From a virus, in the IMG/VR virus record IMGVR_UViG_3300042388_000128, positions 1 through 28,331 of that record: DNA of 28,331 nt; one strand, given 5' to 3'. Under the pieces are notes generated by a model. That model did not search any database. It saw nothing but the letters and a program-made list of their open reading frames with translations, and was not told the DNA's origin. Positions 3,178 to 24,100 of the stretch are shown piece after piece. Position 1 is the first letter of the stretch; every line of letters starts with the position of its first letter. The position numbers and the translations under genes were made by a program.

Positions 3178-5571
3178 TCACCTGGCGCGGGCGTAGTTGA
3201 AGGGCGATTCGGCGAAGGCGGCAAATACGATTTGGTTGCCATTTGTGTACGGATAGCGCAGCTTGATTCCATTAGACAGAAAATCAAATTCAACAGAGGT
3301 GAACTCTGCGCTTGACGAGCTAGCAAGCAGTAAGTTATCGCAGACATTTTCAGGATCTCGGCTTGAGTCATACATACCCCAGTTTCCTGTTGCGCTTGCG
3401 TTTTTGTATAGAAGGAAGCGAGGCCGAAATCCTAAATATGCAAATGCGTTGTCTGACGTTCCATTAGATGTAATTGATCCAAAACTAGAGTACCCGGATA
3501 CGGGGGCGAAGGCGTACACCACATACGTGCCACCGTTGGTATTCATCTCTGCTGAGCCAGCACTTACTGTTAGTACAGTTGATGTTGGTGATGTGTTATT
3601 CCAGAAGTTGGCACTTGTAATTGTTGCGTTTGTCAAATTAAGGCCAAGCGCGCCAGTGTTTCCTATTGCCGAGTGATACACATACCAGTTGGCTACAGCA
3701 TCTCTTCGCTTCACAATCATCATGCTTGGAACCACGCCAAGCCCATGGCCAACAGTGCCAGTGGTGCCTGTGCCCGTATAAGTGACAACGCTGAACCCCG
3801 CACTTGCATTAGCCCGCACCTGACTAGAGATGGAGCCTGATGTGTTCGTGACGGTGGAGCTGCCGGCGTCCCAGGTCCACCCCACATAGGTCTGAGATGA
3901 GCCATTAACTACGGTCGCATCCGAAGATCCTGCTACAACGGTAAAGTCTGCAGTTGAGGAGGTTGAAACATAACCAAACTGCTTAAATGCATCCTCTGCA
4001 CTGGTAGCGTTTGAGTACAGACTTTTATCAATGCCCCTCACCGTGTCTGCCAAGAGGTGGCCATAGGCTGCGCTGCGGCACTTAATCCAAACCAGATCCG
4101 GCGAGAAGCCCAACCCCGAGATCGTCTGGGTGCCACCATTGCCGCTCCAGGTCTTCGTATCAAAAACCGTGCTCGGCTTGACGACGGTGGGCGTGGGCAG
4201 GTTCTGCGTGCAGAGCGCCTTGAAGCCGCTGGGGGCCGTGTAGGCGAAGGCGAAGGGGCGTTGGCCGAAGTTGGCGACAGCAGATGCAGATCCAGAGCCA
4301 GAGCCGTGTTCTATAAAAGGCAAGAATCGGCCATTGTTTGCAAGTGAATAATTGGTTCCAACTTGTGTTCCATTTTTATACCAGCGGATTTGGCTGTTAT
4401 CCGCGTCGTACCCAACACCAATAATGTCATTTGTGGTAAAACCGGCGACTGCTGCAGTCTGCACGTCATTGATATAGATGTTCTGCCACCCACCTGTATC
4501 GTATCGATAATATTTGCTCCGCACGCCTGTTTGGTTGTCTACAACGCCAATTGAAAGTTCTCCGACACTAGTTACGGTTACTTCCCAATACCACTTGCCT
4601 GATGATGGTATTCCAACCGTTCCTTTGACCCCGGTAGCAAACGAGGATGAACCATTTATGGCAACATCAAGATTTCCATTAGTCAGTGTTGCAAACGAGG
4701 GTGCTGATAACGGATTCCAAGTGCAGTAATTCCCCCTCACCTCACCGCCCGCGCCAGCGTCTGTGCCGTAATTAGTGGGAACGTCTACAAGGCTGTCGTT
4801 GCCTGCACCAGCAGTGACGGACAAATTCGACGGGGTGAAGTTGTTCCCGTTCCCGCTAGTGTCCTTCCCTAATGTGGTCGCGGTTGCTGCACTGTTATCC
4901 GCGAACTCAAGGTGGAAGCCGTTAGTGCCGTAGCTGCCGGTGTATGCCTTGGGATTCCACACGCCGGTGGTGGCGTCGAACTCGCCGAATGCCGAGGGAG
5001 CAAGTTGCTGACCGTCAATCAGGTGGACATCGGCCAGCATGAAATTGCTGTAATAACTATAAGCATTGTTATATTTGTCTGCGCCTATATTGTGCTCGAC
5101 GTTATTGTTTACGGCGTAATCATAATTTTGCGTAGGATTATTAGACGTTGAAAATGTAGTTACCTCTGCTCCGTTGACGTAAAGCCTAACGCGCTCTGAA
5201 GCAGTTGCAAGTGTCGTGTCAACAGCAAGGCATATGTGCATCCATGCGCCGGGGTCTCGATATACGGCAGTCGTTTTTCGCCAGCCAGTGCCAGTTCCTT
5301 CAAATGAAAGTATGTCTGCACTTGTAAAGGTGAGCTGATTAAATGTTGCGTCTGTCGTGCCAGTTCCTGCAACAAACAAACGAGCAAACACGCCGAGCTG
5401 ATTTCGCTTTACCCACGCTGCCCAGGTCCAGGTGCGGCGGTTACCAGCAGATGCAGGTGTGCGGCTTAAGTAAGCAGAATCGGCGGAGTTGAAGCGTAGT
5501 GATCTACTCACCCGGTAGCCCGTGTCCTGCGAAGCAAGCAGCAGCGGGTTGGCGTTAGCGGGAACACCCAT
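3178..5571 (-). CDS. Large receptor-binding fibre or adhesin with LamG and SPRY domains
   Basis: The 797-aa product looks built from carbohydrate- or protein-binding beta-sandwich domains. About 20-215 is a LamG/concanavalin-like domain (SLRFNSADSAYLSRTP, then WTWAAWVKR, GAWMHICLAVD and RVRLYVNGAEV). About 280-455 is a B30.2/SPRY-like domain (GKWYWEVTV, NDIIGVGYDADNSQIRWYKN, FGQRPFAF). The remainder contains about three diverged repeats of a beta-rich unit, each with a 'hydrophobic-P-x-hydrophobic-hydrophobic-hydrophobic-h-K' strand (FSPDLVWIK, VPSMMIVKRR, FRPRFLLYKN) and an end like TYVGWTWDAG, TYVVYAFAP or QIVFAAFAE. The start overlaps the stop of the gene before it (TAATG). The base composition inside the gene is patchy, as in recombining fibre genes. 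It is probably the host-recognition protein; the ligand is unknown. Confidence 0.82.
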   Translation of the reverse strand: MGVPANANPLLLASQDTGYRVSRSLRFNSADSAYLSRTPASAGNRRTWTWAAWVKRNQLGVFARLFVAGTGTTDATFNQLTFTSADILSFEGTGTGWRKTTAVYRDPGAWMHICLAVDTTLATASERVRLYVNGAEVTTFSTSNNPTQNYDYAVNNNVEHNIGADKYNNAYSYYSNFMLADVHLIDGQQLAPSAFGEFDATTGVWNPKAYTGSYGTNGFHLEFADNSAATATTLGKDTSGNGNNFTPSNLSVTAGAGNDSLVDVPTNYGTDAGAGGEVRGNYCTWNPLSAPSFATLTNGNLDVAINGSSSFATGVKGTVGIPSSGKWYWEVTVTSVGELSIGVVDNQTGVRSKYYRYDTGGWQNIYINDVQTAAVAGFTTNDIIGVGYDADNSQIRWYKNGTQVGTNYSLANNGRFLPFIEHGSGSGSASAVANFGQRPFAFAYTAPSGFKALCTQNLPTPTVVKPSTVFDTKTWSGNGGTQTISGLGFSPDLVWIKCRSAAYGHLLADTVRGIDKSLYSNATSAEDAFKQFGYVSTSSTADFTVVAGSSDATVVNGSSQTYVGWTWDAGSSTVTNTSGSISSQVRANASAGFSVVTYTGTGTTGTVGHGLGVVPSMMIVKRRDAVANWYVYHSAIGNTGALGLNLTNATITSANFWNNTSPTSTVLTVSAGSAEMNTNGGTYVVYAFAPVSGYSSFGSITSNGTSDNAFAYLGFRPRFLLYKNASATGNWGMYDSSRDPENVCDNLLLASSSSAEFTSVEFDFLSNGIKLRYPYTNGNQIVFAAFAESPFNYARAR

Positions 5572-20658: not shown

Positions 20659-22560
20659 TCAGGTGGTGATGTCCTTGATGGCAGCGAAGCTCTCGGCGTG
20701 ACGGACTGCCACGTCGTAGGTCACGATGCCGCGAACGCTGGCTAATGCTTTGCTGAAGTCGTCGGCGTCTTCTCCCACGGTGATCTCAAGACCGTTACCC
20801 CAGAAGCCAACCATGGCCTGGCTGAAGTCACCCATCAGCACAGCAGAGCAAACGCCGCTGCTGGAACCCTTGGTCAGGGTCGAAGGCACTTGGTTGGTAA
20901 CGGCAACGGGGTAGCCGTTGATCTCAGAACCAGCCGGGCCGCGGCCGAGGGTGTTGCCCACAGCGTTGACCAGGAAGGGGCCGTCGCCAGTGGTGGAACC
21001 ACCAGCACGCAGCTTCTTCAGGGCGCCCATCACCTTGGCGTTGGTGACATAAGCCACGGAGTCGCGGTTCACCGCGCCGTTATCAATCATCACCTCGGTC
21101 TCAAGGTCGACCAGCTTCTCAAGGGTGATGGCGCCACCGTTGGTACCCATGGCCACCGAGCCGATGCCGGAGGTGCCGAGGATGCCGGTGGGCTGACCGT
21201 TGGAGCCAGAGCCGTTGAGGATGCCGAGGTCGAGAGCCAGGTTGAGGCCATCGGTGAGGTCGCGGCGGACCAGCTCCTCAATGCCAGGGGTGCCCTGCAG
21301 AAGCATTTGGCGGCTGTACTTGGACAGAGCGGCCAGGTTCTTGGGGCTGAGCGACACCTGATCGAAGGTGGACTCCGACTGGGTGATGGCGGTGGTCTCA
21401 GTGCTCAGGTAGTAGGTCGAGGCCACACCAGAGCGGCGGGGAATGTCGATGTTGCCAACCAGGCCAGGCATGGTGCGCACGCCCAGGGCCAGCATCACCG
21501 AGTTGTTCCGCAGATACTCGATGAACTCATCAGCCAGCAGGTCGGTGGCAACAATGTCGCCGCCGGTGGAAGCGCTGGAGGTGACGTAGGTGCTACGGGT
21601 CAGAGCGTTGAAAGGAACGAAGAAGCTCTTCTCAGCGCGGGCGCTCATGCCGGAAGTGCGCTGCACCTCTTGGCTCAGTTCGCGCACCAGACCGGCTTCA
21701 CGGGAAGACCAGTCGCCAGACAGAGCGGCGCGAATACCAGCGGTGATGCTGTACTTGGCACGCTCAGCAGGAGCCATGTCCACCGGAGCAACAGCCTCAG
21801 CGGGCTTAATCTCCAGCTTGTCAAGGACAGCTGCGCGAGCTTCGTCAAGACTGCGGCCACCGTCAATCAGTTGACGGCCCAGATCAGCCATGCCGTGCTT
21901 TTCAGTCAGGGCAGTGATGCCAGCAATGCGTGCACGCTCAGCCTTGGCAGCTTCAGCAGCCGCTTCAGCCCGCACCGCCGCAAAGTCGGTGGAGTTTTCC
22001 ATCGGAACCTCAGGTTCTGTTTCGAGGGTTGGTGATGCGGCAGGGGCCGCAGGTTGAGCGTCGAGAGCACGCCCGACGCCGACCGTGGGGTCTAAAGGAA
22101 TGCTAACTGCACTGAGTTCGTAAGGCGTCCAAGAAGTGGCAACAAAATCACCACCACCGCGTTCTTCTAGCTTGTTGATTTGATAGCCAAAAGAGACATT
22201 ACGCAGGATGCCATCCTTGACATCAGCCATGACCTCTTGGGCAAAAGCGTTGCGGCTAAAGCGGACCTTGGCGTAACCCCGCTTCTTTTGTGAATCAATC
22301 CAAGCCCGCTCCACTACGCCAATGACCTTGTTGGGGTCATGGTTGAAAAGCAGCGGAGCACCGTCATTGAGGCGGCTTAGATCTGCCGCACTCCGGTCAT
22401 GGCTCAGGATTTCGTTGCCGAAGTAACGAGCGGCTGGATACTCAGAGCTGAAGGGGAACTCAATCGAGAGTTCGTCCTCGCTGACAGTAAGGTCAACTGC
22501 CTCAGCACGAGTCAGCCGCTGACCGTCATAATCACGCGATTGGTCCATCGCTTGACTCAC
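20659..22560 (-). CDS. Prohead protease, scaffold-like linker and major capsid protein in one frame
   Basis: The 633-aa protein is a fusion. Residues 20-165 are an HK97-type prohead protease (S78 type): LLFNHDPNKVIGVVERAW holds H74, LRNVSFGYQIN holds S123 and TPYELSAVSIPLDP holds E148, so the triad looks complete. Residues 166-200 are an Ala/Pro linker (DAQPAAPAASPTLETEPEVP). About 190-285 is a helical, charged, Ala-rich scaffold or delta-like domain (AVRAEAAAEAAKAERARIAG). From about 300 the HK97-fold capsid follows (STGGDIVATDLLADEFIEYL, NSVMLALGVRTMPG, LALDLGILNGSGSNGQPTGI, KALASVRGIVTYDVAVRHAE). The start given is GTG at 22560; an ATG four codons later (22548) is possible. The start overlaps the portal gene by 29 bases. 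Fusions of protease and capsid are known but not the rule. Confidence 0.9.
   Translation of the reverse strand: MSQAMDQSRDYDGQRLTRAEAVDLTVSEDELSIEFPFSSEYPAARYFGNEILSHDRSAADLSRLNDGAPLLFNHDPNKVIGVVERAWIDSQKKRGYAKVRFSRNAFAQEVMADVKDGILRNVSFGYQINKLEERGGGDFVATSWTPYELSAVSIPLDPTVGVGRALDAQPAAPAASPTLETEPEVPMENSTDFAAVRAEAAAEAAKAERARIAGITALTEKHGMADLGRQLIDGGRSLDEARAAVLDKLEIKPAEAVAPVDMAPAERAKYSITAGIRAALSGDWSSREAGLVRELSQEVQRTSGMSARAEKSFFVPFNALTRSTYVTSSASTGGDIVATDLLADEFIEYLRNNSVMLALGVRTMPGLVGNIDIPRRSGVASTYYLSTETTAITQSESTFDQVSLSPKNLAALSKYSRQMLLQGTPGIEELVRRDLTDGLNLALDLGILNGSGSNGQPTGILGTSGIGSVAMGTNGGAITLEKLVDLETEVMIDNGAVNRDSVAYVTNAKVMGALKKLRAGGSTTGDGPFLVNAVGNTLGRGPAGSEINGYPVAVTNQVPSTLTKGSSSGVCSAVLMGDFSQAMVGFWGNGLEITVGEDADDFSKALASVRGIVTYDVAVRHAESFAAIKDITT
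22000..22011 (-). promoter_or_regulatory. Likely internal translation start inside the protease-capsid gene
   Basis: At codon 187 an in-frame ATG (22002..22000) is preceded by GAGG (22011..22008) with a five-base spacer. The site lies exactly after the protease domain and its Ala/Pro linker, and before the helical scaffold-like part. Starting here would give a 447-aa scaffold-plus-capsid protein without protease. This mirrors lambda, where Nu3 starts inside C. The site is seen; use is inferred. Confidence 0.5.
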
Positions 22561-24100
22561 TTTCAGTGGTGTCCTCTAGATTATCTGCGCTTTCTTCTAT
22601 TGCCTCTTGAGGTTCCATCGCAGGATCCTCCATTGCTTCGTGTTCGTTTTCTGGATTGGTATCGAAGTAAAGGTCTAGCTCTTCAGCGCGATCCACCTCA
22701 GCTTTACGGGCAAGGAGCAACTCTTCAAGGTCACCACCCTGCTCAGCCACCACATCAGCTTGAGTCTTGAAGCCACAGCGAACAGCTTCTTTGTAAGCCT
22801 CTACTTCTTTGGCAGGGTCAATCCAACCCCAGCCCCGCGGCATGAAGCGCACAGCGCGATAGCGGTCTGGATCAGTTTCGTAAGCCGGCAGCCGCAATGC
22901 ACCGCTGAGCACTGCCATCTCAAGCCATGCTTCAAAGACAGGGCGATGCAAGTTCTCGATCATGTACTGCTGCAGCGCCCGCCAGTTGTCGCGGTCCTCT
23001 AAAAGGCTGAGGCGGCTGCTGGAGTAGTTGGACTGGCTGAAGTCACGGCTGATCGTTTCGTAGCTGCAGCCCACACCGGCAGCCATGGCACGGAGCATCA
23101 CGCGCAGGAAGGGCTCCAGCTGACCATCGGGTGCATCCAGCTGTGGGACCGTGACGTTTTCGCCGGGGGCCAGGTACTTAAAAACGCCGGGCTCAAAGTT
23201 GCTGACCCGTTCGTGGTCGTAGAGATCGTCGCCTACCAGCTCACCTTCGTTGTTGGTGATGAAGCCCATCAGCGCCGAGCTAGCCCTAGCCCGCACCACC
23301 TCAGCTTGTTCATAGCCAGCCACCTGATGCAGACGCTGAATAGCAGTAGCCAGCCAAGGCACCCCACGGTTTTGACCAGGGCGCTCCTGCAGGTACAGGT
23401 GGATGATCTGATCAGCAGGGATGATCCGGTGACGGCCTGCCGTGGACTGGCCAAAGGTGGAATCACCAGGGTGCTTGGTCAGGAAGGCGTAGCGAACAGG
23501 GCGGCCCCAGCTGTTCAGCTCAATGCCCATCCGCCATTCGTTGCCCTCTACGTTGCTGGGTCCCACGTAGGCGTCATCAAGCAAGTCGCTTTCGATCACC
23601 TCCAAAGCAAAGGGCACCTCACTTCCGCCAAAGGGTTGACGCACCAAGCGCACAAACACCTCACCGGATTCGGCCATGGCTCCCACTAGAAGCCGTTCCA
23701 TATCAGGAAAGCTCAGGCGGCCAGCGGTGTGGCAGTAGTCCTTGCAGCCCCACTTAAGCCATGCCTTTTCAATGGCATCGTTAACGGTCTGATCAAGGCG
23801 GCCAGAGCCGCGCTGCATCTTGACTTGCGCCTGCAGACGGATGCCGGTTCCAATGACGTTTGCCTTAATGGCGCGGATGGCTTGCTTGGCGTAGTCGTTA
23901 TCGCGGACCAACTGTCGACTGCGATTCCTGAGCCGGGCCAAGCTGCCTTTGATCTCGGCATCAGCGGAGGTGCCAGCCGTTACCCAGTCACTGGTCAGGC
24001 GTGAGACCTTGGCGCCTTCGTACATGCGACGACGCGGGGGTGCGACAGGTGCGTTGCGGTTAGAGCGAAACAGCTCGCGGATAGCAGAACGAATGCCCAT
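22532..24100 (-). CDS. Portal protein (lambda gpB type)
   Basis: The 522-aa protein belongs to the lambda-type portal family, the twelve-fold ring at the head vertex that DNA passes through. Recognisable segments are RLTSDWVTAGTSADAEIKGS, LARLRNRSRQLVRDNDYAKQ, AIRAIKANVIGTGIRLQAQV, FALEVIESDLLDD, GRPVRYAFLTKHPGD, PADQIIHLYLQERPGQNRGV and GVGCSYETISRDFSQSNYSS. The last 60 residues are acidic (EHEAMEDPAMEPQEAIEESA) and probably disordered; the family often has a variable tail there. Length is as expected. It starts with ATG two bases after the stop of the gpW-like gene, and its end overlaps the capsid gene. Confidence 0.95.
   Translation of the reverse strand: MGIRSAIRELFRSNRNAPVAPPRRRMYEGAKVSRLTSDWVTAGTSADAEIKGSLARLRNRSRQLVRDNDYAKQAIRAIKANVIGTGIRLQAQVKMQRGSGRLDQTVNDAIEKAWLKWGCKDYCHTAGRLSFPDMERLLVGAMAESGEVFVRLVRQPFGGSEVPFALEVIESDLLDDAYVGPSNVEGNEWRMGIELNSWGRPVRYAFLTKHPGDSTFGQSTAGRHRIIPADQIIHLYLQERPGQNRGVPWLATAIQRLHQVAGYEQAEVVRARASSALMGFITNNEGELVGDDLYDHERVSNFEPGVFKYLAPGENVTVPQLDAPDGQLEPFLRVMLRAMAAGVGCSYETISRDFSQSNYSSSRLSLLEDRDNWRALQQYMIENLHRPVFEAWLEMAVLSGALRLPAYETDPDRYRAVRFMPRGWGWIDPAKEVEAYKEAVRCGFKTQADVVAEQGGDLEELLLARKAEVDRAEELDLYFDTNPENEHEAMEDPAMEPQEAIEESADNLEDTTESESSDGPIA

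Follow-up and report, generated by a model that had tools for sequence, protein, structure and literature searches.

How can a phage whose prohead protease, scaffold and capsid protein share one reading frame avoid building a shell with a protease on every subunit? Fusion alone would bring in one protease per subunit; the HK97 procapsid holds 415 capsid proteins and ~60 proteases, and phage D3 has 540 and ~90 (PMC12749128). The question arises in an IMG/VR virus record of 28,331 bases (hereafter the window, meaning the whole stretch of DNA analysed), for which a first-pass annotation had proposed that an internal start behind the protease domain yields few protease copies and many capsid copies. 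This stoichiometric argument fits the HK97 and D3 numbers: an internal start would lift the constraint, and entry of the protease would still be guaranteed through the shared capsid domain. Judging from the sequence, the locus very probably encodes two nested in-frame products: a less abundant subunit that carries the protease and a 447-aa scaffold-capsid protein that makes up the majority (Table 1).

Three head functions in one frame

The listing of open reading frames gives a single 633-codon frame on the minus strand, opening with a GTG and occupying 20659..22560, flanked by the portal gene (22532-24100) on one side and several small head-tail genes on the other. Its earlier reading as a fusion was borne out, the parts being an S78 prohead protease, a predicted helical, delta-like scaffold and an HK97-fold capsid domain: the Pfam families Peptidase_S78 (E 1.9e-7, above the family cut-off) and Phage_capsid (E 1.5e-41) match the protease and capsid regions, and phrog_617 'major head protein' matches over its full length (residues 13-632 to profile positions 6-625 of 626, E 5.7e-121). 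The proposed triad of H74, S123 and E148 lies at exactly these positions and is invariant in all 136 family representatives described below; family match and conserved His, Ser and acidic residue together identify a predicted S78 prohead protease. An AlphaFold2 model places helices at 189-299 (629-aa numbering), a delta-like scaffold region N-terminal to the capsid domain, and its best fold match in the PDB is 8gta, the capsid of phage R4C (E 2e-16), with HK97 structures also matched; 8gta was likewise the only solved structure found by single-sequence search. Within the phage collection, Synechococcus phage S-LBS1 and roseophages come closest, at 34-38% identity. Rfam and tRNA scans returned no matches.

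The long product probably starts at the ATG at 22548 (codon 5), giving 629 aa, rather than at the GTG at 22560, because close relatives align at codon 5 with a conserved M-D-[LQ]-S-R-D start and the GTG has no conserved counterpart among them in the alignment. This ATG overlaps the end of the portal gene.

Table 1. Predicted products, domains and initiation signals of the fused head gene, in window coordinates.
Feature	Coordinates	Strand	Basis
Long product, 629 aa (633 aa if GTG 22560 is used), protease-scaffold-capsid	20659..22548	-	Open frame; codon-5 start conserved in close relatives
Predicted nested product, 447 aa, scaffold and capsid without protease	20659..22002	-	Start codon in 128/136; independent set 72/80
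S78 prohead protease domain, residues 65-157	22090..22368	-	PF04586; triad 136/136
Variable disordered linker between protease and scaffold, residues 165-186	22003..22068	-	Low column conservation; pLDDT <50
GAGG, Shine-Dalgarno-like, 5 bases 5' of internal ATG	22008..22011	-	Sequence; frequency of Shine-Dalgarno matches of at least 4 nt in window clade
Internal ATG start, codon 187	22000..22002	-	Sequence; conservation in viral and prophage relatives
Helical scaffold (delta-like) domain, ~residues 187-330, 3' border approximate	21571..22002	-	Model helices; R4C chain start
HK97-fold capsid domain, residues 333-629	20674..21564	-	PF05065; fold match 8gta

Several other features were seen alongside. 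A 381-aa frame antisense to the capsid gene (20890-22035, plus strand) is probably a shadow frame from codon bias. On the minus strand, one frame at 848-1936 combines phage lysozyme and M15 peptidase domains, a probable two-enzyme lysin, and a 797-aa protein at 3178-5571 carries Laminin_G_3, SPRY and DUF7483 domains and is possibly a tail or receptor-binding protein. Among the relatives, the CRP-811 and S-CBS3 proteins (L083:1272-3722 and L086:1278-3788) have ~200 extra N-terminal residues before the protease, and in roseophage CRP-811 part of this extension hits phrog_2859, of unknown function, and gives a weak match to a TUDOR-like Pfam domain; roseophage CRP-823 (L084:947-3875) has two overlapping genes that are both annotated 'major capsid protein', and the upstream one appears to contain part of this extension.

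A conserved start codon in the linker

The predicted internal ATG is present at codon 187 with GAGG five bases upstream, as the first-pass annotation had it; the sequence directly 5' of it reads ...cctGAGGttccgATG, and among the 14 in-frame ATGs of the frame it has the longest Shine-Dalgarno (SD) match, 5 nt (GAGGT). Its placement at the domain border also held: in the model pLDDT falls below 50 at 162-187, and the first scaffold helix spans 189-217 (629-aa numbering, in which the internal Met is residue 183), which puts the Met between the two domains. The start region of the window is not unusually open (-9.8 kcal/mol against a synonymous mean of -7.4). Synonymous constraint near the site is high in the window clade, where E184 is always GAG and E182 and E188 are always GAA; it carries no weight as evidence, since other segments reach similar values.

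To follow the site through the family, 349 relatives from viral contigs and phage records were reduced to 136 representatives less than 90% identical. The aligned column of the internal start holds ATG in 118 and GTG in 10, so the start codon proper was retained, whereas the exact GAGG-N5-ATG arrangement expected of relatives was not retained throughout, GAGG being absent in the S-LBS1 and S-CBS cyanophage clades. Elsewhere in the linker Met fills 27 of 4309 cells (0.6%). Valine at the start column is encoded by GTG in 10 of 11 rows, against a background in which 38% of all valines in the relatives' frames are GTG-encoded; the eleventh, from phiHAP-1, is misaligned, its ATG being a few codons off. 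Eight rows have no start in the exact column, and six of them have an ATG nearby in the linker. Two ECO1230-like sequences offer no clear ATG, one (L341) having only GTG codons in the linker and the other (L355) ATGs only at the linker edges; in these two, initiation may fall on a GTG or at another site, or there may be none within the gene. In the window clade (80 viral contigs) every gene is fused and the Met is kept in every distinct linker listed as the surrounding linker varies. Down to ~30-40% identity, ATG or GTG, mostly with an SD, is kept and the rest of the linker has turned over.

Initiation signals accompany this codon in most clades. Compared with the remaining in-frame Mets, the internal start far more often has an SD match of at least 4 nt in the window clade (0.67 vs 0.13), the roseophage-like clade (0.93 vs 0.23), the ECO1230-like clade (0.79 vs 0.18) and also the phiHAP-1-like group, with the reservation that p values for such comparisons overstate independence because the sequences are related. 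Synonymous shuffles are a strict control here, since the amino acids that they hold fixed may owe their own selection to the SD; against them the frequency stays high in the roseophage-like (0.93 vs 0.56) and ECO1230-like (0.79 vs 0.51) clades. The window clade exceeds them only slightly (0.67 vs 0.51), so the argument for the window rests on the wider family. Of the two cyanophage clades, S-LBS1 and S-CBS3, one has such matches in only 12% and the other in 0%, with no excess over other Mets. Their start regions have next to no predicted folding, with a median of -3.6 kcal/mol where other parts of the frames give -11 to -12.5, and their leaders fold more weakly than synonymous shuffles of the same peptide.

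A set of 80 prophage relatives from bacterial genomes was gathered after the hypothesis had been formed and was not used to form it; most of its records are proteobacterial, and the rest include some cyanobacterial, planctomycete and Nitrospirales ones. A single-protein query of genome contigs retrieved no relatives, and an alignment query did. All 80 are fused. Within 60 codons after the protease, 72 of the 80 have an ATG with an SD match of at least 4 nt, compared with 21% of control stretches from the same frames, and matches of at least 5 nt occur in 50 of the 80, compared with 4.8% of controls; two prophages (L420 and L439) have a GTG with AAGGAG instead. Distances from the protease to the candidate start range from 7 to 58 codons, and the linkers are of differing length and unrelated in sequence.

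One product or two

The fusion, the invariant catalytic residues, the border position and a conserved linker start codon with initiation features in very diverged relatives are directly supported. Production of both proteins, their ratio, their co-assembly and cutting by a tethered protease are what we infer. Initiation upstream, probably at ATG 22548, would give the minor 629-aa protease-scaffold-capsid protein, and initiation at ATG 22002 on the same message the major 447-aa scaffold-capsid protein. The two would co-assemble through their shared scaffold and capsid domains, so that a minority of shell subunits would bring the protease into the procapsid as an additional domain; once inside, the protease may cut off itself and the scaffold domains to leave a shell of ~300-residue chains. 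When anti-SD pairing was predicted for 18 annotated phages, the internal start outdid the annotated main start in only 9, with one tie; in the window the internal site is the stronger one (-6.5 kcal/mol against main-start values of -4.4 and -5.8). These values hint at a favoured internal start but vary between phages, and they take no account of coupling of translation to the portal gene, so the product ratio is a predicted one.

R4C offers a view of the finished shell. Its gene has GGAGG before an internal ATG at codon 189, its capsid contains 415 copies (PMC10276861), and the first residue of the modelled chain is 362 of 629, which aligns with residue 333 of the window protein. As modelled, the mature chain is without protease and without scaffold, and is compatible with either precursor. 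It would thus also be expected if only the full-length fusion were made, each subunit bringing its own protease, all proteases and scaffolds being cut off at maturation and the Met serving as a structural residue or a cleavage site; this single product is also the only one annotated in the phage records examined. We nonetheless regard exclusive synthesis of the full-length protein as improbable. The Met sits in a disordered, otherwise unconserved linker, is replaced by Val almost solely as GTG (10 of 11), and in prophages shifts position with linker length yet stays beside an SD, and in these features is unlike a residue selected in the protein. Moreover, ~415 internal proteases would be several times the ~60 of HK97 (PMC12749128). 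A cleavage-site role for the Met was discounted, its position being variable and its flanking residues not conserved.

That the start codon and SD are a now unused leftover from an ancestral separate capsid gene, fused to a protease gene, is very hard to credit: more distant relatives do have separate protease and capsid genes, which makes fusion by loss of an intervening stop plausible, and many nested N-termini look like normal protein starts (MSEE, MTDE, MKIKVL), yet ATG or GTG, mostly with an SD, persists at ~30-40% identity in a linker that has otherwise turned over, where an unused relic would have decayed. The 80 closest viral relatives and the 80 prophage relatives, sets that favour full-length matches, include none in which protease and capsid are separated at this very position.

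A capsid protein as the predicted nested product

Nested starts within protease genes are known from lambda C/Nu3 and Mu I/Z. Gene 27 of the Mu-like phage PaMx73 has one as well (PMC4378225). Common to these systems is an in-frame start after the protease domain that yields an abundant protease-less protein; in the fusion described here this arrangement is seen as a sequence feature. In those systems what is nested is a scaffold alone, the capsid protein being encoded by a gene of its own, whereas here the predicted nested product is scaffold and capsid protein in one. The first-pass comparison of the frame with lambda C, Nu3 and E is therefore apt as to function and fails in the parts, the protease being of S78 type, with the lambda enzyme annotated as S49 (PMC10695390), and the scaffold a predicted delta domain like that of HK97, carried by the capsid protein. 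Since the nested frame runs through the capsid domain to 20659, it would work like C/Nu3 without being a member of that group. As predicted here, HK97 gp4/gp5 and D3 have an N-terminal scaffold domain on a capsid protein of HK97 fold, and few proteases per many capsid subunits (PMC12749128), but there protease (gp4 in HK97) and capsid protein (gp5) are separate gene products.

The fusion family itself is known: the fused protease-major head proteins of phrog_617 and phrog_4523 (S-LBS1, S-CBS1/3, R4C, VP882, phiHAP-1 and ECO1230-10) belong to the same family, with the same domain order and a full-length match, and the internal start is present in them too, unannotated in the records examined. 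None of 19 phage records annotates a nested product, and a literature search, with subscription literature largely outside it, turned up no account of an internal start for these fusions. What would be new relative to lambda and Mu is the capsid protein itself as the nested product. We lean towards a broader reading: a widespread class of such fused genes, carried by phages and prophages whose hosts include cyanobacteria, many proteobacteria and members of other phyla, would fix the ratio of protease to shell protein by starting translation at two sites on one message, and the cyanophage branches would do so SD-free through a strongly unstructured leader.

The nested product would serve as the chief shell protein in a large group of phages, for which the records examined annotate only the long form. 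This would explain how a covalently tethered protease comes to be present in substoichiometric amounts, and would show structural and proteomic workers the true subunit and how to express these capsids; the cyanophage branch would be a natural test of SD-independent internal initiation.
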